From a virus: DNA of 27,881 nt. The translations under genes and the position numbers were made by a program. Below, in pieces: positions 4,047 to 27,881 of this stretch; positions within the stretch are counted from its first letter, which is position 1; the number at the start of each line of letters is the position of its first letter. The stretch lies in the IMG/VR virus record IMGVR_UViG_3300025646_000251, positions 1 to 27,881 of that record. The stretch is one strand, 5' to 3'. The notes under the pieces were generated by a model. It had not been told where the DNA came from. It saw only the letters and a list, made by a program, of their open reading frames with translations, and ran no database searches.

Positions 4047-4051
4047 CTACT

Positions 4052-4282: not shown

Positions 4283-4297
4283 TATTATATCAATTTT

Positions 4298-4316
4298 CAA
4301 CCAAATTTCTTGGTTG
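4298..4316 (+). other. Hairpin CAACCAA-ATTTC-TTGGTTG
   Basis: A perfect 7-bp stem with a 5-nt loop lies 15 nt after the stop at 4282. No T-run follows it, so it is not a typical intrinsic terminator. It may stabilise the 3' end of the upstream mRNA or be an RNA-processing site. The rest of 4283-4433 holds an AAAAC-GTA-GTTTT mini-palindrome and the late box at 4391. Confidence 0.4.
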
Positions 4317-4390
4317 GACCTACAATTCACCTAAAATCTACCAAAAACGCAAAAAAGTAGCACTTAAAACGTAGTTTTGTTGACTACGCA

Positions 4391-4397
4391 CTAAATA
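4391..4397 (+). promoter_or_regulatory. Late promoter box CTAAATA before prohead core gene
   Basis: CTAAATA lies 36 nt upstream of the ATG at 4434, with an AGGAGA ribosome binding site at 4421-4426. This is the standard arrangement, with a leader, for a T4-like late gene. Confidence 0.65.
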
Positions 4398-4433
4398 ACT
4401 ATACAAAGCCATTCTTAATCAGGAGACATTATA

Positions 4434-5228: not shown

Positions 5229-5241
5229 GGAACTGATACAG

Positions 5242-10898: not shown

Positions 10899-11250
10899 TA
10901 TCTGAATCTGCTGGAATATCTAATAGCTTTTTATTTCTGCGTATTTTCTTATTGAACAGTCTACTACAATTGGCGCACAACGTCATTAAATTATTTTTAG
11001 ACTTGTCATTTACATTCCCATTGCGATATACAACGTCTAATTGAATCATGTCTTGTGGTACAAATCCGCACTCTATACAACGAGATTTTTTCTCTTGTAA
11101 GTGTTTAAATTTCTTATTATACACAGCCTTAGCACAGTCTACACAATACTTGTGCCACTTTTGAAATCCGTGTTTACTTTTACCGTTGGGTTTAGCTAAT
11201 GCAAACTTGCATTTTTTGCATAATGGTCTTGTAGGCTGTGAAGTTAACAT
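10888..11250 (-). CDS. Degenerate HNH-like zinc protein
   Basis: This 120-residue protein, the only clear minus-strand gene here, has four CxxC pairs (Cys11/14, 36/39, 58/61, 92/95). The second half resembles phage HNH nucleases of the form C-x2-C...LDVDHIDGN...NL-x-x-LC-x-NCH. Here it reads LDVVYRNGNVND and LMTLCANCSR: the D-H pair is Val74-Tyr75 and the final His is Ser96. Zinc ligands are kept but the metal-dependent catalytic His residues are lost, so a nuclease activity is unlikely; a DNA-binding or structural role may remain. I recall such proteins in other marine T4-like phages but cannot confirm that here. It is driven by a TATAAATA box 5 nt before its ATG and has no ribosome site. 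It converges with the gene ending at 10898. Confidence 0.75.
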   Translation of the reverse strand: MLTSQPTRPLCKKCKFALAKPNGKSKHGFQKWHKYCVDCAKAVYNKKFKHLQEKKSRCIECGFVPQDMIQLDVVYRNGNVNDKSKNNLMTLCANCSRLFNKKIRRNKKLLDIPADSDITI

Positions 11251-11255
11251 AAATT

Positions 11256-11263
11256 TATTTATA
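11256..11263 (-). promoter_or_regulatory. T4-consensus late promoter TATAAATA, minus strand
   Basis: The minus strand reads TATAAATA-AATTT-ATG, an exact match to the T4 late consensus ending 5 nt before the start codon at 11250. Its first base abuts the terminator stem. Confidence 0.65.
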
Positions 11264-11288
11264 AAAAAGCACTCCTTAGTGCTTTTTT
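11263..11288 (+). terminator. Intrinsic terminator ending the accessory island
   Basis: AAAAAAGCACT at 11263-11273 pairs with AGTGCTTTTTT at 11278-11288 around a CCTT loop, ending in six T residues. It would stop + strand transcripts that cross the antisense side of the HNH-like gene. The A/T symmetry would allow some function on either strand, but the minus promoter lies just beyond it. Confidence 0.85.
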
Positions 11289-11347: not shown

Positions 11348-12889
11348 ATGGCCGCAGAAAAATTCAATGCACTTACTGGATACTCGGTAGGTATTCCGGC
11401 AGTAGACGTAGTTGATGCTAATGGTAATGTAGTTACTAACGTAGTATCTCCATCAGGTAACGTCACGGCTAATGGTGTATATGCAAATTATTATTATTTT
11501 GCTAACGGAGCACCTTTTACTAGCGACCCCGCCGGAACTAACACAGAAGTTCAATTTAATAATAACGGCACGTTTGGCGCATCAGCAAATTTTACTTTCG
11601 ACTCAACTACGCAAACAGTCAGTGTAGGAAATTTTGCGGCATCAGGCGATTCAGTTGATTTAGGGGACGTAGAAAATCTTCATATCGATGGGGGTTTAAA
11701 CGGTTACGTCTTACAAACTGACGGTGCTGGCAATCTATCTTGGACTGCTCAAACAGGTAACGGTGGCGGAAATGGTTCTCCTGGCGGCTCAAACATGCAA
11801 GTGCAGTTTAATGACGCAGGCTTGTTTGGCGGTGACGCAGGATTTTTCTACGATAAAGATACAAACTTATTATCTGTAACTTATATCGAAGCAGATGCCG
11901 GCAATCTAACAAACGTACCCTATGCTAATATCACAGGTATCGGTAACGTATCTGCTGTAAATTTAGACGGTAACTCTCAACATGTATTATACGGTAACGG
12001 TGTGTTTGCAGGCATCGCCGCAGGTGCAACTGCAAACTATGCAAATTTTGCAGGAAACGTTGTCGGAAATGCACAGCCTAACATTACAAGTGTTGGTACC
12101 TTAAATGCGTTAGATGTAGCAACAACGATTCAAACACAAAATCTTTCAGCAAACGGTAATATCGGTGCTGACGGATTAGCAGTAACAGGTAATTCAATCT
12201 TTAATGGTCCTGTTACAATAAGCAGTATTGGAAATTTATCATCTTTCTCTAATGTAAATTTCACATCTTCACCCAACGTAAGTATGACAGTCTCAAACTT
12301 ACACATCAGTGGCGGTCTAAATGGTTATGTATTATCTACTGACGGTAACGGAAACTTAGCTTGGGTAGTTCAAGGTGGCGGAGGTGGCGGTGGCTCGCCA
12401 GGCGGAGCAAACACTCAAATTCAGTTTAATGATGCTGGATCGTTTGGTGGCTCACCTTACATGACCTTCAATAAGACTACGAATAAAGCAACGTTTGCAA
12501 ATGAATTATCTGCAAATACGTTTACTGTAGGCTCAGGATCATTTGAATTTAGAACAACCGAAGTATGTTTTGCTAATACAACATCTACTTCTAATGTAGA
12601 GTTGTGTAGTACACCGGTTGCTGATATTTCTGCTTTAAATTACGTTATTGTAGGCACAGAAGCAGGGACAGGAAAAAGACAATATGCTAAATTTGATGCT
12701 GTCTATTACGACACAAATTTAAGCTATAACGAAGTAAGCACTTTATATGTCGGTGGTGTCTTAGCTGATTTCGATATCACATACGTACCAGGAGATGCAT
12801 TTAATCCAGCACGTATTGTGTTGTGGGTGTCCCCTAGTACTACAAACGAGATCACGTATAAGGTATTGATAGATAAATTTTTAGATTAA
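11348..12889 (+). CDS. Fibre-like virion structural protein, 513 residues
   Basis: The N-terminus (FNALTGYSVGIPAVDVVDA) is a short leader shared in form with the genes at 12952 and 18333. Next come an ANYYYFANGAPF / VQFNNNGTFGASANFTFD module, the motif LHIDGGLNGYVLQTDGAGN, glycine-rich linkers, one AQPNITSVGTL repeat (about 246), a second LHISGGLNGYVLSTDGNGN and another VQFND-type module. The last 115 residues form a beta-rich C-terminal domain (VADISALNYVIVGTEAGTG onwards) like those ending the other fibre genes. Such low-complexity Gly/Asn/Thr proteins are typical trimeric fibres or whiskers. The role as a host-contact protein is inferred from composition and neighbours. Confidence 0.75.
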   Translation: MAAEKFNALTGYSVGIPAVDVVDANGNVVTNVVSPSGNVTANGVYANYYYFANGAPFTSDPAGTNTEVQFNNNGTFGASANFTFDSTTQTVSVGNFAASGDSVDLGDVENLHIDGGLNGYVLQTDGAGNLSWTAQTGNGGGNGSPGGSNMQVQFNDAGLFGGDAGFFYDKDTNLLSVTYIEADAGNLTNVPYANITGIGNVSAVNLDGNSQHVLYGNGVFAGIAAGATANYANFAGNVVGNAQPNITSVGTLNALDVATTIQTQNLSANGNIGADGLAVTGNSIFNGPVTISSIGNLSSFSNVNFTSSPNVSMTVSNLHISGGLNGYVLSTDGNGNLAWVVQGGGGGGGSPGGANTQIQFNDAGSFGGSPYMTFNKTTNKATFANELSANTFTVGSGSFEFRTTEVCFANTTSTSNVELCSTPVADISALNYVIVGTEAGTGKRQYAKFDAVYYDTNLSYNEVSTLYVGGVLADFDITYVPGDAFNPARIVLWVSPSTTNEITYKVLIDKFLD

Positions 12890-12919
12890 GGAAATCACAG
12901 TGCATATAAATGAAAATAA

Positions 12920-12927
12920 CATAAATA
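12920..12927 (+). promoter_or_regulatory. Late promoter box CATAAATA
   Basis: CATAAATA lies 24 nt before the ATG at 12952, with ACGGAG as ribosome site. A second similar string, TATAAAT at 12905-12911, is an alternative. Confidence 0.55.
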
Positions 12928-12951
12928 CAACTATAGTACGGAGACCATCAG

Positions 12952-15129
12952 ATGGCAATTAAACCATTCAATTCAGTAGCTGGATTCTCAGTAGGCGAAG
13001 ATCCAGCCAACATTATTTTAGGTAATGGTTATATCACAACTAACGGTGCTACATTTACAGCAAATATTGCGGCGCTCGGTGTTTTAACAGATAATCTATA
13101 TTACGCAAACGGACAGCCTTGGGACTTGCAATTACCTGCAGGTTCAAACAATCAAATTCAATACAATGATGATGGTTCTTTTGGTGCTAGTGCTAATTTA
13201 GAATTCGATCCTTCTACTAACATATTAACAGTAGGTGGCAATGTCGATATCGGAACAAACTATTATTTAGGTAATGGTGCATTCTTAGACGGCATTGACA
13301 CTTCATTAATTTCTAATGGTACTTCAAACGTAAGCATACCAGCAGTAGACGGAAATATTGAATTAAATGTTGACGGTAATTTAATTGCCAACATAACTGC
13401 TACAGGAGCTAACTTAGACGGTACATTGAACGTAACAGGTATTGTTACTATACCTAGTACTACTGGAGCAATCGATATAGCATTGGGAACACCCACACAA
13501 GGTAACTTAGTAAGTAATGCATTAACTTTAACAACTGCATCATCTGTATCTAATTCTATTGCTCAATTAAACGAAGTGTTAGGTAAACTAGTTCCACCTG
13601 CACCACCTAACTTTCCTAATAGTGTAACATTAGCAGTCGATTCGTTGTCATCGTATCGTATGGCAAACGGGTTTACTCAAACAGATAATACCCCCGGCGC
13701 CAACAAAGCAGTAGCAGGTGGTACAACAGTAACTTCAGTTAGACGTTCTGCTTCTTATTCAACTAACAATATCGCAAACGTTGGCCCCGGTGATACAGGA
13801 ACAATCACTGCTTACTTGAACGGAGCTGATGCAGGTAATGTAACTCTAACGGCAAACTTAGACGGTAATGGTACATATAGCAATTTGATCATCAGTAACA
13901 ACGTAGATTACTCAGTCATTGATGCAAACGTAGCCGCAGGTTTCTGGTCAGTATTTACAGCAGACTTAGCTGGTTCTGTTGCAGATGGCTGGAACGAAGT
14001 CTATATCGCAGACTCCGCTACTAGCAACACAAACACACCCGTATGGTACTATGACTCAAGCAATCCAGGAACACCACAATTTACGTCAATTAGTGTTACA
14101 GAACCCGGATCACCAAGTTATACATATACATCAACGGTACCTCACTATAACAATACTAATGCATTCGATGTACAGTTTAATGTAAACAGATTATCAGGTA
14201 ATATGTATCCAACTAGTAATACATTTATTACTGGTACTGCAGGAGGCGCATTCTCTGCACCTTCATCAGTGACTTATACTGATGCAGGATTGACGTTACC
14301 CTTACCACAAAACTTATATGTAAGTGCAGGTAGTGCAACTGTTACAACTACATCACAGATTATTTCAGGGTTCGGTGCAAGTTCAACAGGTCCTTCCGTA
14401 AACGCATATAACTCTTATTCAACAGGTGTGACAGCATTATCTCCTGGAGCTAATGTTCTGTATAAGACAGGAACTACATCAAGCGCAACTAGAATCGAAG
14501 AAGCAAACGTTTATATCGCATCTTCATTTGGTGTAGGTACAGGATTAGCATCAAGAATTATCAACCCTGGTTCTACAGATACTCCAACATTTACAGCAGG
14601 AGCGTCATTGTTCGACAGTCAATCAAGCACTCTACAAACATATGATGCTACAGTTGTTGCTGATATTCTAAAACACGATGAGACAGACTATTCTTCTGGG
14701 TATCTACCAGTAGGACCTGACTTATCAACAGGTAGATCAGGAACACAATACTTTACATTTAGAATTGTTCGTACATCAGTATCAAAATTTGATATCAAAT
14801 GGACAGGAACAATTGCAGGTTTATGGGTAGCACTACCCGGATCAACAATCGACAGCACATCAGGATTGAACGGCTGGTTAGACATGTCAATTGCATACGC
14901 AGGCGCAGGTGTCCCAGGTTCAAATACAGGTGCTGGTGGTAACGGGTCTGATGGTTGTGCTTTAGGCGGAACTGCACCGCTGAATACTAATCAAACTAAT
15001 AAAGCAGTTACAGTAACATTCGGAACTGTATCATCTTCAAGTACTGCAACTAACGAGATATACATAAGAATAGCACTAGATGCCGGACAAACTGTGACAG
15101 CACTATCACTACAAGCGGCGAGTAATTAA
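12952..15129 (+). CDS. Virion structural protein with conserved large C-terminal region, 725 residues
   Basis: The first 95 residues are the shared leader (FNSVAGFSVGEDPANI) plus the TDNLYYANGQPWDLQ / IQYNDDGSFGASANLEFD module. Residues from about 180 onward are different from the other fibre genes: ALTLTTASSVSNSIAQLNEV, a long non-repetitive beta-rich region, and a C-terminus with FDIKWTGTIAGLWVALPGS, NGWLDMSIAYAGAGVPGSN and GSDGCALGG. I recall very similar C-termini in structural proteins of marine T4-like cyanophages, where they are virion-associated. No AQPNITSVGTL repeat is present. So this protein combines the local family's N-terminal module with a more widely conserved body. It is followed 3 nt later by the next start, so translation is probably coupled. 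Confidence 0.78.
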   Translation: MAIKPFNSVAGFSVGEDPANIILGNGYITTNGATFTANIAALGVLTDNLYYANGQPWDLQLPAGSNNQIQYNDDGSFGASANLEFDPSTNILTVGGNVDIGTNYYLGNGAFLDGIDTSLISNGTSNVSIPAVDGNIELNVDGNLIANITATGANLDGTLNVTGIVTIPSTTGAIDIALGTPTQGNLVSNALTLTTASSVSNSIAQLNEVLGKLVPPAPPNFPNSVTLAVDSLSSYRMANGFTQTDNTPGANKAVAGGTTVTSVRRSASYSTNNIANVGPGDTGTITAYLNGADAGNVTLTANLDGNGTYSNLIISNNVDYSVIDANVAAGFWSVFTADLAGSVADGWNEVYIADSATSNTNTPVWYYDSSNPGTPQFTSISVTEPGSPSYTYTSTVPHYNNTNAFDVQFNVNRLSGNMYPTSNTFITGTAGGAFSAPSSVTYTDAGLTLPLPQNLYVSAGSATVTTTSQIISGFGASSTGPSVNAYNSYSTGVTALSPGANVLYKTGTTSSATRIEEANVYIASSFGVGTGLASRIINPGSTDTPTFTAGASLFDSQSSTLQTYDATVVADILKHDETDYSSGYLPVGPDLSTGRSGTQYFTFRIVRTSVSKFDIKWTGTIAGLWVALPGSTIDSTSGLNGWLDMSIAYAGAGVPGSNTGAGGNGSDGCALGGTAPLNTNQTNKAVTVTFGTVSSSSTATNEIYIRIALDAGQTVTALSLQAASN

Positions 15130-15132
15130 GAC

Positions 15133-18100
15133 ATGAGCATACAACAAGATCAAATCGTAGACTTACTGTATAAACAGGCATTTGGTGTAACCAAAACTGA
15201 TACAGAACAAAATAAAAGTCCATCTAACGAATCTATTCCAAGTCCGCTTTTAAATCGCGGTGACACCGCATGGACCGAAGCTAATCAGATTCCAGTTACA
15301 GCAGGTGCAGTTGCAGGCATCGTGCAGGCTTATACAGGTTCTAGTGCAGTAGAATGTACAGAAGATAATACTACAGTACCTATCAGCGGTATCTACCCAA
15401 CATGGAAAACAGGATTAACTTATTGGATTCCAACTGAGTTCGGTTCCACATATCAAGTTCAAGTATGGGTAGATAGTTCAGGTGTCGCAGACCCAACAGC
15501 AACAGGTACACAAATCTTTGCTGACGGTTCAGGCGGAGTAGGTGAGTGGTACTTTAATTATCAATCAGGTGTATTAAACTTTATCGGTGAGACTATCCCA
15601 ACAGCATTAACTGCTGGTAAGGTACTTTACATCGTAGGTTATCGTTATATCGGTCTAGTTGGGGTAACTAACTTACCTAGCAATACGTTTATTGGTGATC
15701 TAAACTTTACAAACACTACTATCTCCAGCACTTCAGCTAATGGTAATATTATCATTACTCCTGATGGCACTGGTGTATTACAAATCTCATCAGTATTAAT
15801 TGCTAATGGTAACATCGAAGGTGCAAACTTTACTACTAGCGGTGTAGTCTCTGCTACAGGCAACGTGTCAGGTGGCAACTTAACTACTTCTGGTAATGTT
15901 GACGGTGCTAACTTAAATCTAACAGGATTGATTGATGTAGCAGGTAATATCACTTCTACAGCAGGCATCTTTAACGGCGACGGTTATGGATTATCAAATA
16001 TCCCAGCCGCAAACATCACTGGCTTAAGTTTATCTTCTATCTCAAACGGCACAAGTAACGTAAGAGTATTTCAAGACGCTAACGTCACAACATCAGTTGG
16101 CGGCAACGCAAACGTATTAATCGTTACCGGTACTGGCATTCTGGTCAATGGTACAGGAAATACTATTCAGTCAGGTGCTATCTTAGCAAACGGCACTGTT
16201 ACTGCAAACGGCAACATCGATGCAACTAGTGCAAATATTTCAGGACAAGCAACTGTAGGTAATTTATATACAGATTCTATTCTTGCTCCTACAGGCAACA
16301 TAACAATTAGTGCCGCAGGTACTAATGAATCTATCTATCTAGTTCCAACAGGAACAGGTGTAGTAGACGTAGCCGGTAAGAAAATTACTGAACTTGCTAC
16401 TCCTACTAATCCAAACGATGCGGCAACTAAAGAATATGTTGACGCAATCGGTGGCACTGGTTTAACAATTCATAGCCCAGTAAGAGTTGAAGCAAACTCT
16501 GCTATTGGTGGTACATATGCTCAAGGTGGTACAACACCAACTGTAGATCAGATTACTGGTGGTAACACAATCGTATTCACTGCGTCTCATGGTTTGTCAG
16601 AAAACGATGGTATCGTATTTGACAACTCATTCAATGGATTGACAGCAGGTGAAGGCTATTGGGTATTCAGTGTTCCTTCAGCAACATCTATCACAGTTAA
16701 AGATGGATACTTTGGTGCTGAAGTTACAGGTTTAACAAACGGAACAAGTTTAGCAGAACCCTCACGTGCTAATCCGGGTGTAGGTGCTACATTAACAAAT
16801 AGCGGTGCTAATGCGGCACTTGTTATTGACGGCATCACAGTTGCGAATAATGACAGAGTTTTAATTTACGCAGAATCTACAGCCGCATACAATGGTGTAT
16901 ATGACGTAACAGACTCAGGTAACGCTTCAGCGGCTTGGGTACTTACACGTTCATCAGACATGAACAAATACATACCTGCTTCTTCAAGCGGTATGGGTAA
17001 AGGTGATTATCTCTTTATCGAAGAAGGTGCTTCTGGCGCCGGCGAATCTTATGTGTTAACCGCACCAGACGGTGAGATCATCATTGGTACTTCTAACGTT
17101 GAATTTACTCAGTTTAGTTCTGCAGGGTCATATACAGCAGGTGCTGGTATCGATATCAGCGGTACAACAATCAGTGCTAACGTAGATGGCGTAACTACAG
17201 CGATTGTTGGTGGAAACATTGCAGTTAAAACTTCTGCTCAGTTTACAACACCAAATATCGGTGTGGCATCAGGTACAAGTTTAACTGTAACAGGTAACGT
17301 AAGTGCTAATAACTTAAGTATTTCTAATATTGCAAACATCGACGGCAATTTAACTGTTGGTGCAAATATTATTGCAAGTGATGATATCACTGCAAATGCA
17401 AACATTTTTGCTAATAATGCAAACATTACAACGTTATTAGAAGTACCAACTGCAAATGTAACAAATGTTAACGCTACAAGCAATATCATTGCAAATACAT
17501 TAACTATTAACTTAGATGCTAGCATGAATACTGCTAACTTTAGCGGTAATGTAGTATTCTCAGGTGATCTTGTTACAATTGATAATGATTTATCAGGTAA
17601 TACAGGTAACTTTAGTGGTAACGTTGGAGTACTTGGATTATTAACAGATAACTTATATTACGCAAATGGTCAACCCTGGGACTTACAAGAAGCCGCAGGG
17701 TCAAATACACAAGTTCAATTCAATAGTAATAATGATTTTGGTGCGAGTGCAAACTTTACATTTGATACTGCTACAGACAACTTAACAGTAACAGGTAACG
17801 TTGTTGTTGCAACCGGTGCTTTCTATGGTGACGGTGGCGGCATCTCTAACGTAGTAGGTGCAAACGTAACCGGTCAAGTAGCAAACTCTGCCGTAGCCGG
17901 CACAGTTTACACTAATGCACAACCTAACATTACAAGTTTAGGAACACTAACTTCTGTTGACGTAAGTGGTACAGCTAATATCGATACTGGTGTAAGTATC
18001 GGTGCTAACCAGATATCTACTATTCAAGCGGCAACAGTAAATACAGTAAGTACTTCACAGACTGCTATTGCAACATTTGCAGTATCCGGAGTATCTGGTA

Positions 18101-18330
18101 TAGAATTTTTAGTAAAAGGCAGAGACGCCTCAGGTGGAAACACTAGCGTAGCCACAGTGTTGGCAGTGACTGATGGAAGTAATGTTGACTATTCAGTATA
18201 TGGTTCTGCTTACTTAGTAGGTGCGACCGGAGCACTAGCAGTCGGCATTAATGGGTCTAATGTTGAACTATTAGTTACCCCTTCAAGCGGAAACTCAACT
18301 CAGTGGATCACACAATATAGGTTTATTTAA
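15133..18330 (+). CDS. Large fibre-like virion protein, 1065 residues
   Basis: The N-terminal domain of about 175 residues (MSIQQDQIVDLLYKQAFGVT, NESIPSPLLNRGDTAW, WYFNYQSGVLNFIGETIP, VLYIVGYRYIGL) is distinct from its neighbours and resembles virion proteins of marine T4-like phages; it may be the particle-attachment part. Then follow NVSGGNLTTSGNVDGANL-type repeats, a FNGDGYGLSNIPAANITG module, the PTGTGVVDV / AATKEYVD / NDRVLIY / WVLTRSSD module (about 390-676), the LLTDNLYYANGQPWDLQ module (about 836) and one AQPNITSLGTL repeat. It ends in a beta-sandwich-like C-terminal domain of about 120 residues. The start follows the previous stop by 3 nt with no clear ribosome site, pointing to coupling. 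Confidence 0.8.
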   Translation: MSIQQDQIVDLLYKQAFGVTKTDTEQNKSPSNESIPSPLLNRGDTAWTEANQIPVTAGAVAGIVQAYTGSSAVECTEDNTTVPISGIYPTWKTGLTYWIPTEFGSTYQVQVWVDSSGVADPTATGTQIFADGSGGVGEWYFNYQSGVLNFIGETIPTALTAGKVLYIVGYRYIGLVGVTNLPSNTFIGDLNFTNTTISSTSANGNIIITPDGTGVLQISSVLIANGNIEGANFTTSGVVSATGNVSGGNLTTSGNVDGANLNLTGLIDVAGNITSTAGIFNGDGYGLSNIPAANITGLSLSSISNGTSNVRVFQDANVTTSVGGNANVLIVTGTGILVNGTGNTIQSGAILANGTVTANGNIDATSANISGQATVGNLYTDSILAPTGNITISAAGTNESIYLVPTGTGVVDVAGKKITELATPTNPNDAATKEYVDAIGGTGLTIHSPVRVEANSAIGGTYAQGGTTPTVDQITGGNTIVFTASHGLSENDGIVFDNSFNGLTAGEGYWVFSVPSATSITVKDGYFGAEVTGLTNGTSLAEPSRANPGVGATLTNSGANAALVIDGITVANNDRVLIYAESTAAYNGVYDVTDSGNASAAWVLTRSSDMNKYIPASSSGMGKGDYLFIEEGASGAGESYVLTAPDGEIIIGTSNVEFTQFSSAGSYTAGAGIDISGTTISANVDGVTTAIVGGNIAVKTSAQFTTPNIGVASGTSLTVTGNVSANNLSISNIANIDGNLTVGANIIASDDITANANIFANNANITTLLEVPTANVTNVNATSNIIANTLTINLDASMNTANFSGNVVFSGDLVTIDNDLSGNTGNFSGNVGVLGLLTDNLYYANGQPWDLQEAAGSNTQVQFNSNNDFGASANFTFDTATDNLTVTGNVVVATGAFYGDGGGISNVVGANVTGQVANSAVAGTVYTNAQPNITSLGTLTSVDVSGTANIDTGVSIGANQISTIQAATVNTVSTSQTAIATFAVSGVSGIEFLVKGRDASGGNTSVATVLAVTDGSNVDYSVYGSAYLVGATGALAVGINGSNVELLVTPSSGNSTQWITQYRFI
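16300..17160 (+). repeat. AATKEYVD / DRVLIY / WVLTR module, copy 1
   Basis: Residues about 390-676 contain PTGTGVVDV, DAATKEYVD, GVGATLTNSGANAALVIDG, NDRVLIYAE, NGVYDVTDSGN, WVLTRSSD and YTAGAGIDIS, in the same order as at 20737-21339 and 27264-27881. Copy 1 is the longest because an extra TPTVDQITGGNTIVFTASHG segment is inserted after the YVD motif. Confidence 0.8.
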
Positions 18331-18332
18331 CA

Positions 18333-19934
18333 ATGGCTATTCGACCATTTAATTCGATCGGTGGGTACACGGTCGGTACAAACTTTATCAATGTTATTGA
18401 TGATGTAGGTAACGTAACTGCTAACAATCTTACCGTTACTAACCTAGCAAATCTAGGTGCTGTTAGTAATATCACTATTACTGGCGGAACTAATGGTCAA
18501 GCATTAACAACAGACGGAAACGGCAATCTAAGTTTCAGTTCAATCGCATCTAATAAAGCGGCTCCCATGCCATACTACATTGGCAATACTGAGTCGTTTA
18601 TCGTAGATGAAAACTTTCAAGGTCTTTTCTCTCAACCAATTGAAATTGATGGTGAGCTAGTAGTCGACGGTGTATTAATCGAATTAGGTACATCACAGAA
18701 CGCTGAATCTACGCAAGTATATTTTGATAATAACGGCGTACTTTGGGGCAACTCAGGTTTCACATTCAACATCGCATCAGGCAATTTAGCAGTACCCGGT
18801 AACTTAAATCTAACCGGCGATATTATCCCAAGCGCAAGTAATACTTATAGTCTAGGTTCTAATTCAAACAGATGGAGTAACTTATATCTTTCTGGTAATA
18901 CTATTATCTTAGGTAATGCAACAATTACTGAAAATGAAGACGGCGCAATAGTGCTTACCAACGCAGAAGGTGGTACATTAACAGTTGAAGGTGCTGATGC
19001 CGTTGATACTTCAATGATTGCTAACGGCACTTCAAATATTCAAGTTGTAGCCAATGCAGGAGTTGCATTTAACTTGGCAGGCACCGGTAACGTAGTTACG
19101 ATTTCTGCTGATGGAGATATTTCTGGTGCAAATATTACTTCTTCTGGCAACGTAGCCGCATCAGGTGTTAAAACAGACAATTTTTATTACGCTAATGGAA
19201 CCCCAGTAAACTTTGGAGGAGACCCAGGCGGCTCTAATAACTATATTCAATATAACGATAATGAAACGTTTGGAGGTAGTGCTAATCTAACTTATGACGA
19301 TGCTTCTCAACAGTTAACACTGGTTGGTACAGCTAATATCACAAATGTTAATGTATCAGGTACAGTAGTAGCAACAGGCAACGTTAAAGCTAATGCATTT
19401 ATTGCATCATCAGGTACAGTACAGTTTGGTCTTCCACCTGGAGCAGGAACGATCACTGTAAGTAATGTTACGCAAACAGCAGGTATTTTTACTTCGGGCA
19501 TCACAGATGTTAACATCGGTCTTGCAGCCAACGTTGTTATTTGCGGTACAGGTAAAACACTAACTGCAAGGGGTAACGTTAATGCAGACAATCTTCAAGC
19601 AACTACGTTATCAGTAAATGATTTTTATAGCAGTAGAACAGGAGTTACGGTAGGTAGCGCAAATACTACTATTGATACGTTTAATGCGACTACATATCGT
19701 TCAGTAAAATACACAATCAAAGTTTCAGATTCTACAGGATATCAAGCTGTAGAAGCTCTTTTAGTACATGACGGCATAAATAGTATCATAACAGTATACG
19801 GCAGCCTTTCTACTACTGGAAGTGATTTAGTGACACTCACTACAGTACTGACAGGAGGCAACGTAGTTTTGAGAGCAACGCCAAATAATAGTAATACAAG
19901 CGTTAATCTCATGGCTACATACGTACCTGATTAA
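18333..19934 (+). CDS. Fibre-like virion structural protein, 533 residues
   Basis: The leader (FNSIGGYTVGTNFINVIDDV) matches the genes at 11348 and 12952. Modules in order are ITITGGTNGQALTTDGNGN, NFQGLFSQPIEIDGELVVDG (about 92-112, shared with the gene at 22673), VYFDNNGVLWGNSGFTF, the common fibre motif NTYSLGSNSNRWSNLYLSGN (about 173-192), a TDNFYYANGTPV / IQYNDNETFGGSANLTYD module, and a C-terminal domain of about 100 residues with YRSVKYTI, YQAVEALLVHDG and ITVYGS. That domain is paralogous to the end of the 882-residue protein. The ATG lies 2 nt after the previous stop without a visible ribosome site, so coupling is likely. Confidence 0.77.
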   Translation: MAIRPFNSIGGYTVGTNFINVIDDVGNVTANNLTVTNLANLGAVSNITITGGTNGQALTTDGNGNLSFSSIASNKAAPMPYYIGNTESFIVDENFQGLFSQPIEIDGELVVDGVLIELGTSQNAESTQVYFDNNGVLWGNSGFTFNIASGNLAVPGNLNLTGDIIPSASNTYSLGSNSNRWSNLYLSGNTIILGNATITENEDGAIVLTNAEGGTLTVEGADAVDTSMIANGTSNIQVVANAGVAFNLAGTGNVVTISADGDISGANITSSGNVAASGVKTDNFYYANGTPVNFGGDPGGSNNYIQYNDNETFGGSANLTYDDASQQLTLVGTANITNVNVSGTVVATGNVKANAFIASSGTVQFGLPPGAGTITVSNVTQTAGIFTSGITDVNIGLAANVVICGTGKTLTARGNVNADNLQATTLSVNDFYSSRTGVTVGSANTTIDTFNATTYRSVKYTIKVSDSTGYQAVEALLVHDGINSIITVYGSLSTTGSDLVTLTTVLTGGNVVLRATPNNSNTSVNLMATYVPD

Positions 19935-19971
19935 ACTAAAACTTAGTCAATAATATTGGGGAATTATTACA

Positions 19972-22620
19972 ATGGCGACAAAAAATTTCGTAGTTAAGAA
20001 CGGCTTAACAGTCGGTTTGGCATCTATCGATGCCGCAACTGGTAATCTTATCAGTAAAAATGCCAATCTAGGTAATCTAGCGTCAGCAAATATTTTTGCT
20101 GGATCAGGTGCAAATCTATCAAACATTGCTGGTGCAAACGTAACCGGCACTGTAGCAAATGCTACTCATGCGTCTACTGCTAATACAGTAACAACCGCGG
20201 CACAGCCCAATATCACATCAGTAGGTACACTGTCAAGTTTAACAGTATCAGGTAACACTGCTACTGGTGGCCTCTTAACAGACAGCATTTACTATGCAAA
20301 CGGCGACCCCTACGTCTTTGCAAACGCTGGCGGTGCGAATACACAAGTTCAATTCAATGACAGTGGTTCTTTTGGTGGAAGTTCATCTTTCACATTTAAC
20401 AAATCAACCGGTGCATTAACAGTTTCAGGTAACGTTTCTACCGGTAATATTTCAGGTGCTTTAGGTAACTTTACTACAGTAACAGGTACACTAACTACTT
20501 CAGCACAACCTAACATTACTAGCGTAGGTACTCTTACAAGTTTAGCAGTAACAGGTAATGCTAGCGCAGGTAATATCTCTGCCACTAACGGTGCTTTTAC
20601 TACAGTAGGCGGCACATTAACTACTGCGGCTCAACCTAACGTAACATCATTAGGTACACTAAGTTCACTAGACGTTACAGGTAACGTCACTACATCTGCT
20701 AACTTAGTGACAGATTTAATTCAAGGTAGAACATCTGGTATTTCTATTCGTGCAACAGGCACAAATCAAAATATCGAATTAAGACCTACAGGCACAGGCT
20801 TCACAGATGTATGGGGCGGAAGAATCGCTAACGTAGCGGCTCCAACAGCATCTGGCGACGCCGCAACAAAACAATACGTAGACGAAGTTGCACAAGGACT
20901 TGATCCTAAAGGATCTGTTGTTTTAGCAACTGCTTCTGCTTTACCATCTTACACATATAATAACGGCTCATCAGGCGTAGGAGCAACTATTACTGCTTCT
21001 TCTAACGGTGCATTAAGTGTTGATGGATCAACACCAAGTGCTGATGATCGTATTCTTGTTAAAGACGAAACAGGCGGTAATGCTCCTTATAATGGTATCT
21101 ATGTAGTTACTACAGTAGGTGACGCAGGTACTGCATTCGTATTGACACGTGCAACTGACTTTGACGGCGCCCCCGGATCAGAAATTCCTGGCGCATTCGT
21201 GTTCGTTGAAACAGGTAGCACATATGCAGATACAGGTTGGGTATGTACAACTGACGCTCCTGTAACTGTTGGTTCAACAGACATTACATTTACACAGTTC
21301 TCTGGTGCTGGTACATACACAGCAGGAACTGGCTTAACATTAAACGGTACTGAATTTTCAATCAGCAACACAACTGTAACAGCACAAGCATATGGCTCAG
21401 GTGATGCAGTTGCTACATTTACTGTTAACGCACAAGGTCAATTGACAGCGGCTGCTAACGTAGCAATCGCAGCCAACGCCGCTAACTTAACTGGCTCAAC
21501 ACTTTCTTCAAACATCACAACATCAAGTTTAACAAGTGTTGGCACATTAGGTTCATTAGACGTTACAGGTAATGTTGGTGCAGGAAATGTCTCAGCGACA
21601 GCCGGTAGCTTTACTACAGTTGCAGGTTCATTAACAACTGCATCACAGCCAAACATCACAAGCGTAGGTACATTAACATCGCTGGCAGTAACAGGTAACG
21701 CAAGTGCTAATAACATCAGTGCTACAAATGAAGTATCTGCTACAACTTTAAGCGGTACTTTATCAACAGCCGCACAACCTAATATCACAAGTGTTGGTAC
21801 ACTATCATCACTATCTGTAACAGGTAACGTGACAGCAGGCGGTGTTAAAACTGATAACTTATATTATGCAAACGGCAATCCCTGGGACTTACAAGAAGCC
21901 GCAGGTAGCAACACAGAAGTTCAATTTAACAGCAATGACGACTTTGGTGCTAGCTCAAACTTTACATTCAACAGTTCTACAAACAACTTAGCAATTAACG
22001 GCAACATCGTTGTTTCAACTGGTGGTTTTTATGGTGATGGCTCAGCCTTATCATCACTAACAGGTGCTAACGTAACCGGTGAAGTAAGCTATGCGGCAGT
22101 TGCAAACTCAGTATCAGGTTCTAACGTATCAGGTGCAGTCTCATTTGCAACGACTGCTAATAACGTTGCAGGTAGCAATGTTTCAGGTCAAGTAGGCAAT
22201 GCGGCAGTAGCCGGAACAGTTTACACTAACGCACAACCTAACATTACAAGTGTTGGTACACTAACATCTGTAACAACAACAGGACAAGTAAAAGCAGTAT
22301 CATTAGGAACACAACGTTCTAACGTCTCAGTAACAACTAATACAGTTGTTGATGAGTTTGATCCTAGCACTTACAGAACAGCAAAATATGTCTTCTCTAC
22401 ATCAGGAGACGATGGGTATCAGTCTGTTGAATGTTTATTAGTACATGATGGATCAGATTCATATATCACAATTTATGGTTCTGTCTGTTCTAATACATCA
22501 GCAGATATTGTAGAATTATCAAGTAATATTAATGGAGTATCAGGAAACGTAACAGTTTATGCTACTACAAATAGTGCAAACGTTGTGTTGAATGTGGTGA
22601 CAGCATACATTTTAACATAA
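19972..22620 (+). CDS. Fibre-like virion structural protein, 882 residues
   Basis: The leader is MATKNFVVKNGLTVGLASID. The body carries six AQPNITSVGTL-type repeats, two YYANG / VQFN / FTF modules, the FYGDGSALSSLTGANVTGEV module followed by short SGSNVSGAVSFATTAN-type units, and one PTGTG / AATKQYVD / DRILVK / FVLTRATD module (256-456). The last 100 residues (YRTAKYVF, YQSVECLLVHDGSD, YITIYGS) are the same C-terminal domain as in the 533-residue protein. The ribosome site GGGGA (19958-19962) lies in the loop of a weak AT-rich hairpin, AATAAT/ATTATT. It is probably a trimeric fibre or a capsid- or tail-surface adhesin; no receptor can be inferred. Confidence 0.78.
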   Translation: MATKNFVVKNGLTVGLASIDAATGNLISKNANLGNLASANIFAGSGANLSNIAGANVTGTVANATHASTANTVTTAAQPNITSVGTLSSLTVSGNTATGGLLTDSIYYANGDPYVFANAGGANTQVQFNDSGSFGGSSSFTFNKSTGALTVSGNVSTGNISGALGNFTTVTGTLTTSAQPNITSVGTLTSLAVTGNASAGNISATNGAFTTVGGTLTTAAQPNVTSLGTLSSLDVTGNVTTSANLVTDLIQGRTSGISIRATGTNQNIELRPTGTGFTDVWGGRIANVAAPTASGDAATKQYVDEVAQGLDPKGSVVLATASALPSYTYNNGSSGVGATITASSNGALSVDGSTPSADDRILVKDETGGNAPYNGIYVVTTVGDAGTAFVLTRATDFDGAPGSEIPGAFVFVETGSTYADTGWVCTTDAPVTVGSTDITFTQFSGAGTYTAGTGLTLNGTEFSISNTTVTAQAYGSGDAVATFTVNAQGQLTAAANVAIAANAANLTGSTLSSNITTSSLTSVGTLGSLDVTGNVGAGNVSATAGSFTTVAGSLTTASQPNITSVGTLTSLAVTGNASANNISATNEVSATTLSGTLSTAAQPNITSVGTLSSLSVTGNVTAGGVKTDNLYYANGNPWDLQEAAGSNTEVQFNSNDDFGASSNFTFNSSTNNLAINGNIVVSTGGFYGDGSALSSLTGANVTGEVSYAAVANSVSGSNVSGAVSFATTANNVAGSNVSGQVGNAAVAGTVYTNAQPNITSVGTLTSVTTTGQVKAVSLGTQRSNVSVTTNTVVDEFDPSTYRTAKYVFSTSGDDGYQSVECLLVHDGSDSYITIYGSVCSNTSADIVELSSNINGVSGNVTVYATTNSANVVLNVVTAYILT
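20737..21339 (+). repeat. AATKQYVD / DRILVK / FVLTR module, copy 2
   Basis: Residues 256-456 repeat the order PTGTGFTDV, DAATKQYVDE, GVGATITASSNGALSVDG, DDRILVKDE, NGIYVVTTVGDAG, FVLTRATD and YTAGTGLTL. It lacks the extra insertion of copy 1. The proteins align but the DNA is considerably diverged. Confidence 0.8.
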
Positions 22621-22672
22621 CTTACAATTTAAAATAAAAGTCAATTAGTTTGACATTGGGGAAAATGGAACC

Positions 22673-23248
22673 GTGGCATATAAAGACTTTAGAGTAAAAA
22701 ATGGCTTAACAACGCCATCTCTAACCGTTGAAGGAATTTCTAATCTAGGACCTATAGGTAATGTAACCATTACCGGTGGCACCAACGGTCAAGTCATAAC
22801 TACAGATGGCTTAGGCAATCTTTCGTTTGATGACTTATCTTCCTCTATATCCCCTATGCCCACTCTCATCGGTACAGGTACCGATGAGACCATCCCCGAA
22901 AACTATCAAGGTTTATTTGGTTTCCCGATCACGATTGACGGGTCATTAACTGTTGACGGTATCTTAGTAGATGTCAGCGGTGATGGCCCGGTAGTTGGTG
23001 GATCACAAAATCAAATTCAGTTTAATAATGGGTCAGATGACGTATTGGGTGCAAGTGACAAACTTACATTCAACACAGAAACTAGAGTGTTATATGCTAA
23101 TGGAATAATGCGTACAGGACAGTATGCTAATAATGCTTTACCAGATAGTGTTGCAGGTGGAATTATTTTTATTACCGGTGTCAACAAGCCTGCATACGGC
23201 GACGGTACAGGCTGGTATTATTTCGATACTAATGAGCAAGTTTCATGA
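22673..23248 (+). CDS. Short fibre-family protein, 191 residues, GTG start
   Basis: The best start is GTG at 22673, with GGGGA 10 nt upstream; the nearby ATG at 22665 is out of frame and stops after ten codons. The N-terminus (VAYKDFRVKNGLTTPSLTVE) resembles the leader of the 882-residue protein. The next 80 residues (VTITGGTNGQVITTDGLGN, NYQGLFGFPITIDGSLTVDG) are paralogous to the 533-residue protein. The last part (NQIQFNNGSDDVLGASDKL, then GGIIFITGVNKPAYGDGTGWYYFD) contains no terminal beta domain of the type seen in its neighbours. It may be a small adaptor or whisker, or a shortened relative of the larger fibres. Confidence 0.7.
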   Translation: MAYKDFRVKNGLTTPSLTVEGISNLGPIGNVTITGGTNGQVITTDGLGNLSFDDLSSSISPMPTLIGTGTDETIPENYQGLFGFPITIDGSLTVDGILVDVSGDGPVVGGSQNQIQFNNGSDDVLGASDKLTFNTETRVLYANGIMRTGQYANNALPDSVAGGIIFITGVNKPAYGDGTGWYYFDTNEQVS

Positions 23249-23275
23249 GATTTATAGCAGTCTTTTTAAAAAAAT

Positions 23276-23283
23276 AATAAATA
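23276..23283 (+). promoter_or_regulatory. Late promoter box AATAAATA
   Basis: AATAAATA lies 47 nt before the ATG at 23331, with AGGG at 23317-23320 as ribosome site. It is preceded by an A/T-rich run (TTTTTAAAAAAA) that could be an upstream element. Confidence 0.5.
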
Positions 23284-23330
23284 CAACATATGCGTGAGCA
23301 GAAAGTATCATAATATAGGGTAGACTTAAC

Positions 23331-26300
23331 ATGTTAATTTTAAAACAAAATGCGGCAAATTCAGTACCTACTCCGGCAGCGGGTAAGGGTACTATTTTCT
23401 TAAGCGATTCTGACGTACTATCAGTAAAGAATAGTTCAGGTAATGTAGAATCGTTTCCAACAGTAGGTGGCTCAAACACTCAAGTCATGTTTAATAATGA
23501 CGGGGCCCTTGCAGGTAATAGTAATTTTATCTTTGATAAAGACAGTTCGGTATTAACTATTACTGGCAACGTAGCGGCAACTAGAGTTCTTACTGACAAC
23601 TTATTGTATGCTAACGGAGCCGCTTGGGATTTACAAGAACCCGCTGGTGCAAACACGCAAATACAATATAATAATAACGGCGATTTTGGAGCTACTTCTA
23701 ACTTTACTTTTGATACTGATACTAATACGCTGACTGTAATTGGTGCTATTTCTGCAACTACCCTAGCAGGATCACTGACTACAGCCGCACAAACAAATAT
23801 CACAAGCGTTGGTACTTTAACAGGATTAGTAGTAAACGGTAACGCTTCTGCAACTGATTTATCAGCTTCTACCCTAAATATTACTGGTAATGCAGTTGCA
23901 GGCAACATCTCAACCGGTGGTGTGCTATCAGGCGATACGTTATCTATCACAAACGATGCAGTAATTAACGGTAATTTAGCAGTCAACGGTAATTTAACAT
24001 ACATCAATGTTGATGATCTTTCTGTAGAAGATCCATTGATTCAGTTAGGTACAGGTCCTAACGGAGCCCCTCTAACTTCTAATGATGGTAAAGATCGCGG
24101 TACTGTTCTTAATTATTACTCAGGTGGCGCATTACAAGCATTCATGGGCTGGGACAACTCTAACGCAGAGTTTTCATTCGGTAGCGATGTTACTGTAAAC
24201 AGTGATGTGATCACATTCAACACGTTAGGTAATGTACGTGCTGAAATGTTTCTTGGTAACGGCGCATCTCTTTCATCTATCACTGGCGCCAACGTAACAG
24301 GTACAGTTGCTAACGCAAACTTTGCAACATATTCTGGCACTGCTAACATTGCAAACGTAGCATATTCTGTTGATGGTGCGAACGTATCAGGTGAAGTTGC
24401 TTATGCGGCAACGGCAAATGCAGTAGCCGGTAGTAACGTTTCTGGCGAAGTTTCATTCGCAGCCACAGCAAACGCAGTAGCCGGTTCTAATGTTTCTGGA
24501 GAAGTATCATTTGCCGCAACTGCAAACGCAGTAGCTGGTTCTAATGTCTCAGGTGAAGTCTCATTTGCGGCAACAGCAAACGCAGTAGCAGGTGCTAACG
24601 TAAGCGGAACAGTTGCTAATGCAACATATGCTGATAGTGCAGGAACAGCAGATACAGTAACTACTAACGCACAACCAAATATTACAAGCGTCGGTACATT
24701 ATCTTCAATACTAGTAGCAGATGGTTCATTCGGTGATTTTGATGGCAAGATCGTTTCTGCTTACGGAAATACAGGTCAAGGGTCTACTGATTGGATCGGT
24801 GTAGTCGGTGAAGCGATCGGTAATAGTGCAAATGATGCAAATACAGGTATCGGTGTATTAGGTGTAGGTTCTACTACAGGAAACACTAGGGGTACTGGTG
24901 TTAAAGGTATCGCAGTAGTCGCTAACTCAGCAGACTCAGGTGCCGCAGTAGGTGTACGTGGTGTATCTGCTGAAACACACTCTGGTGGTTACAACATCGG
25001 TGTTTTAGGATCAGCCGGCGGCTCAGGCGTTCAAAACTATGCTCTCTATGTTCAACAGGGTAATATCGGTTCTATTGAAGCAGACGTACAATGGGATCTA
25101 AACGATAATTCAGCCACTGCATTAACATTTGGTTCTTCAGGTAAATCAAATATTTTCTTGATCGAAACTACAGACAATGCAGAAGGTGTCGCAACATCAG
25201 GTTACTTGAACGTAACAGGTAACGCTACAGTAGGCGGTATCAAAACAGACAATTACTATTATGCTAATGGCGCGCCATTAGACATGCAACAACCAGCTGG
25301 TTCAAATACTCAAGTCCAGTATAATGATGACAGTGATTTTGGTGCAAGTCCTAACTTTACGTTCGATTCAAGCACTAACATATTAGCAGTTACAAACGTT
25401 TCTGCAACATTACTGACAGGTACATTAACTACAGCAGATCAACCAAACGTTACTTCTTTAGGCACATTGACATCACTTGATGTTACAGGTAACGTAGGTG
25501 CAGGCAATGTAAGTGCTACTGACGTTTCAGGTACTACATTAGGTGGTACATTAACTACAGCGGCTCAGCCCAATGTAACAAGTGTCGGTACTCTTACATC
25601 ATTGGATGTAACAGGTAACGTGGGTGCAGGTAACGTAAGTGCTACAGCAGGTGATTTCACATCTGTAAGTGGTAACGGTTCTGCTCTAACAGCACTCACT
25701 GGCGCTAACGTAACTGGTGAAGTATCATTCGCCGCAACTGCAAACGCAGTAGCAGGTGCGAACGTATCAGGTGAAGTTGCATTTGCAAATACAGCGAATG
25801 CAGTAGCAGGCGCTAACGTCTCGGGTGAAGTTTCATTTGCAGCCACAGCAAACGCAGTTGCTGGCGCAAACGTATCAGGTGAAGTTGGATTTGCCGCAGT
25901 CGCTAACTCAGTAGCAGGCGCTAACGTTTCTGGTACTGTATCAAGTGCAACAACTGCTGGTACAGTAACAACAGCCGCACAACCAAATATCACATCAGTA
26001 GGTACACTTACTGGTTTAGGAGTGAATGGTAATATCACTGCTACAAATATCACTGCTAATACAGGTGTATTTACAGGTGATGCAGGTGGATTATCTAACG
26101 TAGTAGGTGCTAATGTAACCGGTACTGTATCAAGTGCAACAACTGCTGGTACAGTAACAACAGCCGCTCAACCTAACATCACAAGTGTTGGTACATTAAC
26201 AAGTCTATCAGTTACAGGTAATGTTTCAGCAGGTAACGTAAGTGCTACAGCAGGTGATTTCACATCTGTAAGTGGTAATGGTTCTGCTCTAACAGCACTA

Positions 26301-27881
26301 ACAGGTGCTAATGTCACAGGTCAAGTCGCATTTGCGGCAACTGCAAACGCAGTAGCAGGGGCTAATGTTTCTGGACAAGTAGGTAATGCACTAGTAGCAG
26401 GAACTGTGTACACGAACGCACAGCCTAACATCACATCAGTAGGTACTCTATCATCACTCTCTGTGACCGGTAACGTAGGTGCTGGTAACGTGAGCGGTAC
26501 AGGTGGTGTGTTTACATACGTATCAGGTGATGGTGCTAACTTAACATCAATCACTGGTCAAAACGTAACAGGCGAAGTCGATTTTGCACAAGTCGCTAAC
26601 TCAGTAGCAGGTGCTAATGTTTCTGGACAAGTAGCAAACGCACTAGTCGCAGGTACAGTATACACAGCGGCTCAACCAAATATTACAAGTGTTGGTTCAT
26701 TGTCATCACTTGATGTAACAGGTAACGCAACAGCCGCTAACGTGATTGCAGATACAGGTGCATTCTATGGTTCAGGTTCAGGCTTAACATCACTTAACGC
26801 ATCTAACTTGTCATCTGGTACTGTACCATCTGGTAGATTGAGCGGTTCTTATTCAATATCAGTAACAAGTGCTTCAACAGCCGGTACTGTAACAACAGCC
26901 GCACAACCAAATATTACAAGCGTTGGTACATTAACAAGTTTATCAGTTACTGGTAATGCTTCAGCAGGTAACGTCAGCGGTACAGGTGGTGTATTCACAT
27001 ACGTATCAGGTGATGGTGCTAACTTAACATCAATCACTGGTCAAAACGTAACAGGTGAAGTAGATTTTGCACAAGTTGCTAACTCAGTGGCAGGCGCTAA
27101 TGTATCTGGTACAGTTTCTTCTGCAACAACAGCCGGTACTGTAACAACAGCCGCACAGCCTAATATTACTTCAGTAGGCACATTAAGTGCAGTTACAGTA
27201 TCAGGTAATGCTACAGTTCAAGGTAACGTAGTAACTGACAAAGTACTAGGAAGAACAAACGCTAACTTAACGATCACTGCGTTCTCAGGCAATAACTCTA
27301 TCAAACTTGCTCCTACAGGAACAGGTGTAGTTGATGTTGGTGCAAAACGTGTTGTTAACGGTGCTGACCCAACAGCCGCTAAAGATTTAGCAACAAAAGA
27401 ATACGTAGACACAATCGCAGCCGCAGGCTTACATTATCACGCACCATGTCGTGTTGAATCACCTACAAACTTGAATGCAACTTACAACAACGGTTCTTCA
27501 GGTGTTGGCGCTACATTGACTAACGCAGGCGCTAATGCCGCACTATCAATTGACGGTATCACATTATCTACTAATGATCGTGTATTGATTTACCAGCAAA
27601 CAGATCAAACACAAAACGGTGTTTATGTAGTAACAACCGTAGGTGACGGTTCAACTGCTTGGGTACTAACACGTTCTAGTGACACTGACACATACAGCCC
27701 AAGTGATCCGGATGCATTTGGTGAAGGTGATGCTTTCTATGTACAAGAAGGTACAACTGGTGCTGGTGAACTTTATGTGATGAACACTTCAGGTCCTATC
27801 ACTTTTGGTACTACAAACATCACATTCGTACAAATTTCATCTGCTCAGATTTACTCAGCAGGTACAGGCTTAGACTTAACA
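23331..27881 (+). CDS. Giant repeat-rich fibre protein, at least 1517 residues, 3' partial
   Basis: I translated this frame by eye from the ATG at 23331 to the right edge (1517 codons) and saw no stop, so the gene continues beyond the window. Order: leader MLILKQNAANSVPTPAAGKG and IFLSDSDVLSVKN; YANGAAWDLQ/IQYNNNGDFG module; NVDDLSVEDPLIQLGTGPNG and FMGWDNSNAEFSFGS (about 225-285), a segment I recall from cyanophage structural proteins; five 18-residue NVSGEV units; a G-V-x-G repeat region (about 480-575); another YANG module; ten AQPNITSVGTL-type repeats in all; a second five-unit NVSGEV array; and the PTGTG/ATKEYVD/WVLTRSSD module at the edge. It is probably a long trimeric fibre or adhesin. 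It has its own late promoter box. Confidence 0.82.
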   Translation, partial: MLILKQNAANSVPTPAAGKGTIFLSDSDVLSVKNSSGNVESFPTVGGSNTQVMFNNDGALAGNSNFIFDKDSSVLTITGNVAATRVLTDNLLYANGAAWDLQEPAGANTQIQYNNNGDFGATSNFTFDTDTNTLTVIGAISATTLAGSLTTAAQTNITSVGTLTGLVVNGNASATDLSASTLNITGNAVAGNISTGGVLSGDTLSITNDAVINGNLAVNGNLTYINVDDLSVEDPLIQLGTGPNGAPLTSNDGKDRGTVLNYYSGGALQAFMGWDNSNAEFSFGSDVTVNSDVITFNTLGNVRAEMFLGNGASLSSITGANVTGTVANANFATYSGTANIANVAYSVDGANVSGEVAYAATANAVAGSNVSGEVSFAATANAVAGSNVSGEVSFAATANAVAGSNVSGEVSFAATANAVAGANVSGTVANATYADSAGTADTVTTNAQPNITSVGTLSSILVADGSFGDFDGKIVSAYGNTGQGSTDWIGVVGEAIGNSANDANTGIGVLGVGSTTGNTRGTGVKGIAVVANSADSGAAVGVRGVSAETHSGGYNIGVLGSAGGSGVQNYALYVQQGNIGSIEADVQWDLNDNSATALTFGSSGKSNIFLIETTDNAEGVATSGYLNVTGNATVGGIKTDNYYYANGAPLDMQQPAGSNTQVQYNDDSDFGASPNFTFDSSTNILAVTNVSATLLTGTLTTADQPNVTSLGTLTSLDVTGNVGAGNVSATDVSGTTLGGTLTTAAQPNVTSVGTLTSLDVTGNVGAGNVSATAGDFTSVSGNGSALTALTGANVTGEVSFAATANAVAGANVSGEVAFANTANAVAGANVSGEVSFAATANAVAGANVSGEVGFAAVANSVAGANVSGTVSSATTAGTVTTAAQPNITSVGTLTGLGVNGNITATNITANTGVFTGDAGGLSNVVGANVTGTVSSATTAGTVTTAAQPNITSVGTLTSLSVTGNVSAGNVSATAGDFTSVSGNGSALTALTGANVTGQVAFAATANAVAGANVSGQVGNALVAGTVYTNAQPNITSVGTLSSLSVTGNVGAGNVSGTGGVFTYVSGDGANLTSITGQNVTGEVDFAQVANSVAGANVSGQVANALVAGTVYTAAQPNITSVGSLSSLDVTGNATAANVIADTGAFYGSGSGLTSLNASNLSSGTVPSGRLSGSYSISVTSASTAGTVTTAAQPNITSVGTLTSLSVTGNASAGNVSGTGGVFTYVSGDGANLTSITGQNVTGEVDFAQVANSVAGANVSGTVSSATTAGTVTTAAQPNITSVGTLSAVTVSGNATVQGNVVTDKVLGRTNANLTITAFSGNNSIKLAPTGTGVVDVGAKRVVNGADPTAAKDLATKEYVDTIAAAGLHYHAPCRVESPTNLNATYNNGSSGVGATLTNAGANAALSIDGITLSTNDRVLIYQQTDQTQNGVYVVTTVGDGSTAWVLTRSSDTDTYSPSDPDAFGEGDAFYVQEGTTGAGELYVMNTSGPITFGTTNITFVQISSAQIYSAGTGLDLT
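24366..24635 (+). repeat. Five tandem 54-bp units (18 residues, NVSGEV array 1)
   Basis: Units begin at 24366, 24420, 24474, 24528 and 24582. Three central units encode the same or almost the same 18 residues (AVAGSNVSGEVSFAATAN) while their DNA differs mainly at third codon positions. The outer two are more diverged in protein. Confidence 0.85.
24781..25026 (+). repeat. G-V-x-G repeat region in giant fibre gene
   Basis: Encoded motifs IGVVGEA, IGVLGVG, TGVKGIA, VGVRGVS and IGVLGSA occur at intervals of about 14-21 residues. This differs from the rest of the fibre and looks like an inserted beta-repeat segment. Confidence 0.6.
25692..25961 (+). repeat. Five tandem 54-bp units (18 residues, NVSGEV array 2)
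   Basis: Units begin at 25692, 25746, 25800, 25854 and 25908 and encode x-V-A-G-A-N-V-S-G-E-V-x-F-A-x-x-A-N forms. The array is a second copy of the type at 24366-24635 in the same gene, flanked by AQPN repeats. Confidence 0.85.
25932..26167 (+). repeat. 47-bp direct repeat pair
   Basis: 25932-25978 and 26121-26167 are identical by eye over 47 bp (starting GGTACTGTATCAAGTGC), spaced 189 bp (63 codons) apart. They encode GTVSSATTAGTVTTAA. Confidence 0.8.
26514..27055 (+). repeat. 59-bp direct repeat pair, 483 bp apart
   Basis: 26514-26572 and 26997-27055 are identical by eye over 59 bp (starting ACATACGTATCAGG). They are part of longer, nearly identical paralogous segments encoding TGGVFTYVSGDGANLTSITG and following residues. 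The 483-bp offset is 161 codons. Confidence 0.82.
27264..27881 (+). repeat. ATKEYVD / DRVLIY / WVLTRSSD module, copy 3 (at window edge)
   Basis: Residues from about 1312 show PTGTGVVDV, DLATKEYVDT, GVGATLTNAGANAALSIDG, NDRVLIYQQ, NGVYVVTTVGDG, WVLTRSSD and YSAGTGLDL. The order matches the other two copies. Confidence 0.8.

Follow-up and report, generated by a model that had tools for sequence, protein, structure and literature searches.

Fixed ends, exchanged interiors and a stop-straddling two-domain unit in a seven-gene fibre array of a T4-like jumbo phage

The locus downstream of gp23

The window, by which we mean the whole 27.9 kb stretch analysed here (positions 1 to 27,881 of IMG/VR virus record IMGVR_UViG_3300025646_000251), carries a T4-like head module in its first part, followed by an array of seven fibre-like genes, A to G (Table 1). 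Besides the portal, protease and major capsid protein, which stand in the conserved order gp20, gp21, gp23 of gp23-type jumbo myoviruses, the head module includes a coil protein. These genes are syntenic with those of GAP32, PA5oct and Vibrio phage 2.275.O, and gp23 is 65-70% identical to its counterparts in the named jumbo phages Vibrio 2.275.O, Sinorhizobium Phosso, PA5oct and GAP32, in all of which the stretch after gp23 is variable. The window belongs to a T4-like jumbo phage, an uncultured virus of bacteria. No tRNA genes or Rfam families were found within it, and the late-promoter pattern TATAAATA was no more frequent than chance. Terminator-like sites, scored in the region by consensus scan only, were fewer than chance, and this sparsity is consistent with a single transcript for the array.

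Several smaller ORFs accompany the head module. Those at 3189-4043 and 8319-9089 look by eye like SGNH-type hydrolases (GCSF/GDSW, GND-like and DxHPN-like motifs; no Pfam match), and the first of them is missing from more distant relatives. A 235 aa protein at 10191-10898, with a WYHNYSGGKF motif and no PHROG or Pfam match, is conserved at 63-75% within the close clade. Between gp23 and the array, a minus-strand ORF (10888-11250), small, rich in cysteine and zinc-finger- or HNH-like, is retained at the same place in many close relatives.

Table 1. Positions of the head-module genes, fibre genes, domains and repeats within the window
Feature	Position	Strand	Description
Portal (gp20)	1399-3189		PHROG profile match, phrog_213
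Protease (gp21)	5242-5883		PHROG profile match, phrog_207
Major capsid protein gp23	7034-8233	+	phrog_138, E 5e-100; anchor upstream of the array
Terminator-like hairpin	11263-11288	+	ahead of gene A; consensus scan only
Gene A	11348-12889	+	leader, YANG/QFN and TTDG modules, one AQPN repeat, gp9-like tip (about 12545-12886)
Gene B	12952-15129	+	B/C-slot leader, YANG/QFN/FGAS module, domain B8 at the end
Domain B8	13480-15126	+	phrog_8578, E 5e-97; ends exactly at the gene B C-terminus
B8-C9 junction	15127-15132	+	stop codon TAA and 3 nt, inside the travelling unit
Gene C	15133-18330	+	C9 start, interior [P] (about 16423-17130), repeats, B/C-slot tip (about 18019-18327)
Domain C9	15133-15678	+	phrog_9417, E 6e-29; gene N-terminus directly after the B8 gene
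Gene D	18333-19934	+	leader, TTDG and YANG modules, D-type tip (about 19623-19931)
Gene E	19972-22620	+	VKNGLTVG leader, six AQPN repeats, [P] (about 20863-21310), E-type tip (about 22300-22617)
Gene F	22673-23248	+	short, fibre-like, GTG start; 47% to part of D, C-terminus different
Gene G	23331-27881	+	incomplete at the contig end; holds ten AQPN repeats, [P] (about 27390-27837) and many NVSGEV units
Exact repeats in gene G	25626-27055	+	50 nt at 25626/26229; 47 nt at 25932/26121; 59 nt at 26514/26997

As the original prediction had it, the seven fibre-like genes are consecutive and fill the plus strand from 11348 to 27881, with G open at the contig end. Their ORFs encode 513, 725, 1065, 533, 882, 191 and more than 1517 aa, respectively, and Pfam scans of the fibre proteins gave no match above cut-off. 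The predicted sharing of modules was borne out, since motif counts far exceed those of residue-shuffled proteins (24 against 0.1 for NVSGEV-type, 10 against 0.005 for QFN-type and 6 against 0.04 for YANG motifs) and the proteins align pairwise in many partial combinations (E < 1e-3). The count of 18 AQPNITSVGTL repeats was exact, with 1 in A, 1 in C, 6 in E and 10 in G. For the terminal LLVHDG domain, the literal string is absent outside D and E, whereas a profile of this C-terminal domain also picks up A and C, as well as many relatives; B and F have other C-termini, and the end of G falls beyond the window. Complete G genes in relatives encode 1394-1593 aa with a VVEVLVGKN-like end, which is preceded by a YADLAEK motif in two of them (L099 and L177). 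Exact DNA repeats of 47-59 nt occur within G only, the one gene with recent internal expansion. The longest exact repeat between genes is 26 nt, so that the inter-gene duplications are old.

In the closest relative (G016, the contig holding L183; gp23 98% identical), A to G have one-to-one counterparts in the same order, with identities of 71, 84, 61, 82, 82, 82 and 62%, and gene G is complete at 1593 aa. Further on in that contig are proteins of 777 and 366 aa whose counterparts in L099 match the large and small subunits of ribonucleotide reductase; in relatives, the array lies downstream of gp23 and ends before nrdA/nrdB. L093 taken with L099 likewise has the genes in one-to-one order. A second close relative (G018; gp23 97.5%) lacks E and F and carries the other five genes, and fused, split or additional fibre genes occur in more distant relatives. 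In L099, a frameshift, perhaps an assembly error, seems to divide the orthologue of G (1642-5786) into pieces of 736 and 657 aa. Single genes of about 3000 aa are found in the relatives L150 (6647-15607), where the gene holds dozens of the same repeats as the array, and in L173 (10316-19342).

Slot ends and interiors

To describe inheritance along the array, we refer to each gene position as a slot, with a leader at the start and a tip at the end. A tree of the C-terminal domain, built from 110 columns with many inner forks unresolved and with tip labels taken from end motifs, separates the slots: it needs 5 label changes, against a minimum of 4 and a mean of 47 on shuffling. Leader class, assigned by motif, agrees with tip class; for genes that start with C9 (B/C tips in 21, A tips in 3), the leader was read from the upstream B8 gene. 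A tree of [P], a large interior domain shared between genes, in which slot labels were assigned partly by motif and 13 of 57 sequences stayed unassigned, barely tracks the slots, with 23 changes (minimum 5; shuffled mean 26.7). Along gene C, identity to the closest relative is 75-95% in the C9 start, 33-60% in [P] and mostly 65-85% in the stretch towards the tip. Judged by these identities, the [P] domain of gene C is a replacement relative to the closest relative. At the level of sequence comparison, each slot is shown to keep its own tip, by the tree, and its own leader, by motif, while interiors are replaced, expanded or lost.

These results divide the earlier proposal of a duplication and shuffling system with terminal domains as the likely specificity or trimerisation units. 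Module exchange holds for the interiors, as in the [P] tree, and one-to-one orthology without such exchange, which would have spoken against the proposal, is seen for gene order in the closest relative and not for the interiors. The tips are slot-fixed and do not move from one slot to another, and a dedicated shuffling system finds no support. That seven old paralogues simply diverged by vertical descent, without exchange, would agree with the one-to-one genes of the closest relative and with tips that stay in their own slots; contradicted by the [P] tree, by the relocation of the cassette described below and by the absence of E and F from G018, this account is very improbable.

Recent copies, defined as at least 90% identity over at least 80 nt, were found between genes in 6 of 201 loci, while intragenic repeats were found in 36 of 201. 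Inter-gene copies that are rare beside commoner intragenic ones would fit occasional homologous recombination with no dedicated engine, and we propose that modules are exchanged by ordinary homologous recombination between repeats. High repetition and a gene content that varies between close relatives could point to a retroelement, invertase or site-specific recombinase that drives the shuffling. However, no retroelement or recombinase gene matched among those window proteins that were searched, no inverted-repeat switch was found in the window, and the array has no long inverted repeats, only two minor inverted-repeat pairs. Together with the rarity of recent inter-gene copies, this leaves a dedicated system highly unlikely.

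Phage receptor-binding proteins (tail fibres and tailspikes) are known as modular mosaics (PMC10684548). The array resembles them in that interior domains are exchanged between proteins and between phages. It differs in being seven paralogues in one array with both ends of each slot fixed, so that a variable, exchanged C-terminal specificity domain is not found, and in that one of the exchanged units extends across a stop codon and the start codon that follows.

A unit spanning the B8-C9 gene boundary

This unit consists of the domain that ends gene B (B8) and the domain that starts gene C (C9), and the phrog_8578 and phrog_9417 profiles match over the respective domains. When B8 and C9 were scanned separately in IMG/VR, B8 was followed by C9 in 139 of 140 testable loci and C9 was preceded by B8 in 137 of 138, the loci overlapping between scans and comprising 71 distinct pairs. 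Both adjacency exceptions come from L296, a single locus whose C9 start is called early and whose two genes overlap as called. The modal gap between the two in relatives is 2 nt. B8 always lies at a protein end and C9 nearly always at a protein start. Separate searches of named phages with B8 and with C9 each gave 52 records and 77 places, with matching organism tallies. B8 and C9 identities are correlated across the stop codon over very divergent phages (Spearman 0.94), and pairs with B8 at 60-75% have medians of 66% in B8 and 73% in C9, compared with 42% and 39% in the adjoining 100 aa.

The unit stands in different places in different phages. A single gene holds both the B leader and the C tip in P096, P094, P021, P150, P028, P034 and P100, while in the window group the B/C slot is interrupted by B8, a stop codon, a few bases, a start codon and C9. 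Split and unsplit B/C slots require at least 5 changes on the tip tree. Four phages have the unit in slot A, where the C9 gene, if complete, has an A tip; P035 has it in what looks like slot D, and in P030 it stands alone between other genes. On a gp23 DNA tree, cassette location, scored as six states, requires at least 8 changes, where 5 is the minimum. When DNA of slot-A and slot-B/C phages is compared, one 2.3 kb block over B8 and C9 matches at 78%, with different flanks. Comparative evidence of this kind shows B8, stop, few bases, start and C9 to be inherited as one block and to occupy different slots in different phages. The B8/C9 pairing was not found in our literature searches of open-access papers, and the stop-straddling unit, which went unnoticed in the earlier sequence-only reading, is our main new result.

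Homologues of the two domains occur in adjacent genes of phiCbK-like phages (Dolichocephalovirinae), which differ in being siphoviruses and in that their last C9 protein is bare. In phiCbK, gp73 and gp74 are a simple B8/C9 pair. Caulobacter phage C1 has a chain, gp122-gp124, in which a protein ending in B8 is followed by gp123, which begins with C9 and ends with B8, and then by C9 again; Bajun has the same chain. No AQPN-repeat modules were found near the B8-C9 genes of phiCbK-like phages and C1. A bare C9 protein of 186-232 aa follows B8 in some phages.

The AF2 model of B8 is confident (pLDDT 89.9) and has an N-terminal helix followed by a string of beta domains. Its PDB matches are not close, and the Ig-like label for the beta domains rests on these generic matches; a fold search also found the B8 fold in jumbo phage proteins. 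The model of C9 with the tip is poor (pLDDT about 40-80), and the shaft model is of low confidence. In this model, Foldseek matched T4 gp9 (1qex, prob 1.00) and Fri1 tailspike 6c72; it printed no positions, and we placed the gp9 match on the tip as the only confident stretch of that length in a weak model. Since gp9 is a connector, the tip may not bind receptors. The [P] domain matches PDB chain 9efk, which is present in 18 copies and whose source was not identified in searches of open-access papers.

Proposed fibres and a possible joint

Taken together, the array most likely encodes a set of adhesion fibres whose ends are fixed and whose interiors can be exchanged. Proteins of this kind are known; their arrangement here is unusual. 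We propose that the products of A to G, encoded between gp23 and nrdA/nrdB of a T4-like jumbo phage, are seven adhesion-fibre proteins, that they would form trimeric fibres of the tail adsorption apparatus, and that their shafts would be made of repeats with gp9-like C-terminal domains. Within the B/C slot, the B8 end could, less certainly, dock to the C9 start, turning one fibre polypeptide into a two-part jointed fibre whose leader and tip would still be those of the original gene. As a whole, the explanation, comprising seven fibre proteins, slot-fixed ends, exchanged interiors, a block-inherited B8-C9 unit and putative docking, is probably correct.

Placement of the fibres on the tail and not the head is putative. 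That the array follows the capsid gene, that phrog_2647, which matches [P], is labelled head decoration, and that phiCbK gp73 and gp74 lie between capsid genes and gp76, a proposed head filament (PMC3556154), would suit head (capsid) fibres. In L325 (10048-12699), gp73 and gp74 occupy that position and may belong to the filament. Against head fibres, the tip matches T4 gp9 and tailspikes in fold, and the jumbo phages with the same head module (portal, protease, coil protein and gp23), namely GAP32, PA5oct and Vibrio 2.275.O, have a variable region with fibre genes after gp23. There, GAP32_254 is accompanied downstream of gp23 by a tail fibre assembly protein. PA5oct gp324, detected by mass spectrometry, is annotated 'putative tail fiber protein H'. 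The post-gp23 fibre genes of these three phages, including both of these, have no detectable module similarity to A to G. We regard head fibres as unlikely and favour the tail.

The working model for the joint is the T4 long tail fibre, in which several proteins, gp34-gp35-gp36-gp37, are joined end to start in one jointed fibre; we know of no movable joints in it. No sequence similarity to its proteins was found, and here the joint is read from linkage, co-inheritance and chain architecture. B8-C9 may be a portable plug-and-socket joint whose in-frame insertion splits a fibre protein into halves that reassemble end to start. We advance this docking only tentatively because linkage cannot separate a joint from an insertion block that leaves two working genes. 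Such a viable block, with B8 as a fibre tip, C9 as a virion anchor and two independent fibres, is quite plausible, if short of an even chance: B8 is found at the end of a protein in every case and C9 at the start in nearly all, and tandem duplication of the block would also yield a C9-B8 chain. Yet the bare C9 that follows B8 without a fibre is easier to read as a cap or socket than as an anchor, and the tight co-inheritance of B8 and C9 over very divergent phages also speaks against it. The bare C9 proteins and the C9-B8 chain tilt the reading towards docking.

In the usual description of phage fibres, the base is constant and the tip is exchanged. In this array both of these stay constant and exchange affects the interior, which shifts the place where specificity should be sought. 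Reading B8 and C9 in this way gives a testable role to gp73 and gp74, two proteins of the model phage phiCbK with no assigned function. If B8-C9 is a joint, fibre jointing would itself be a movable trait, and such a plug-and-socket unit would let phages gain further joints, relocate them or increase their number in fibres built on unrelated plans, among them the fibres of the phiCbK group.
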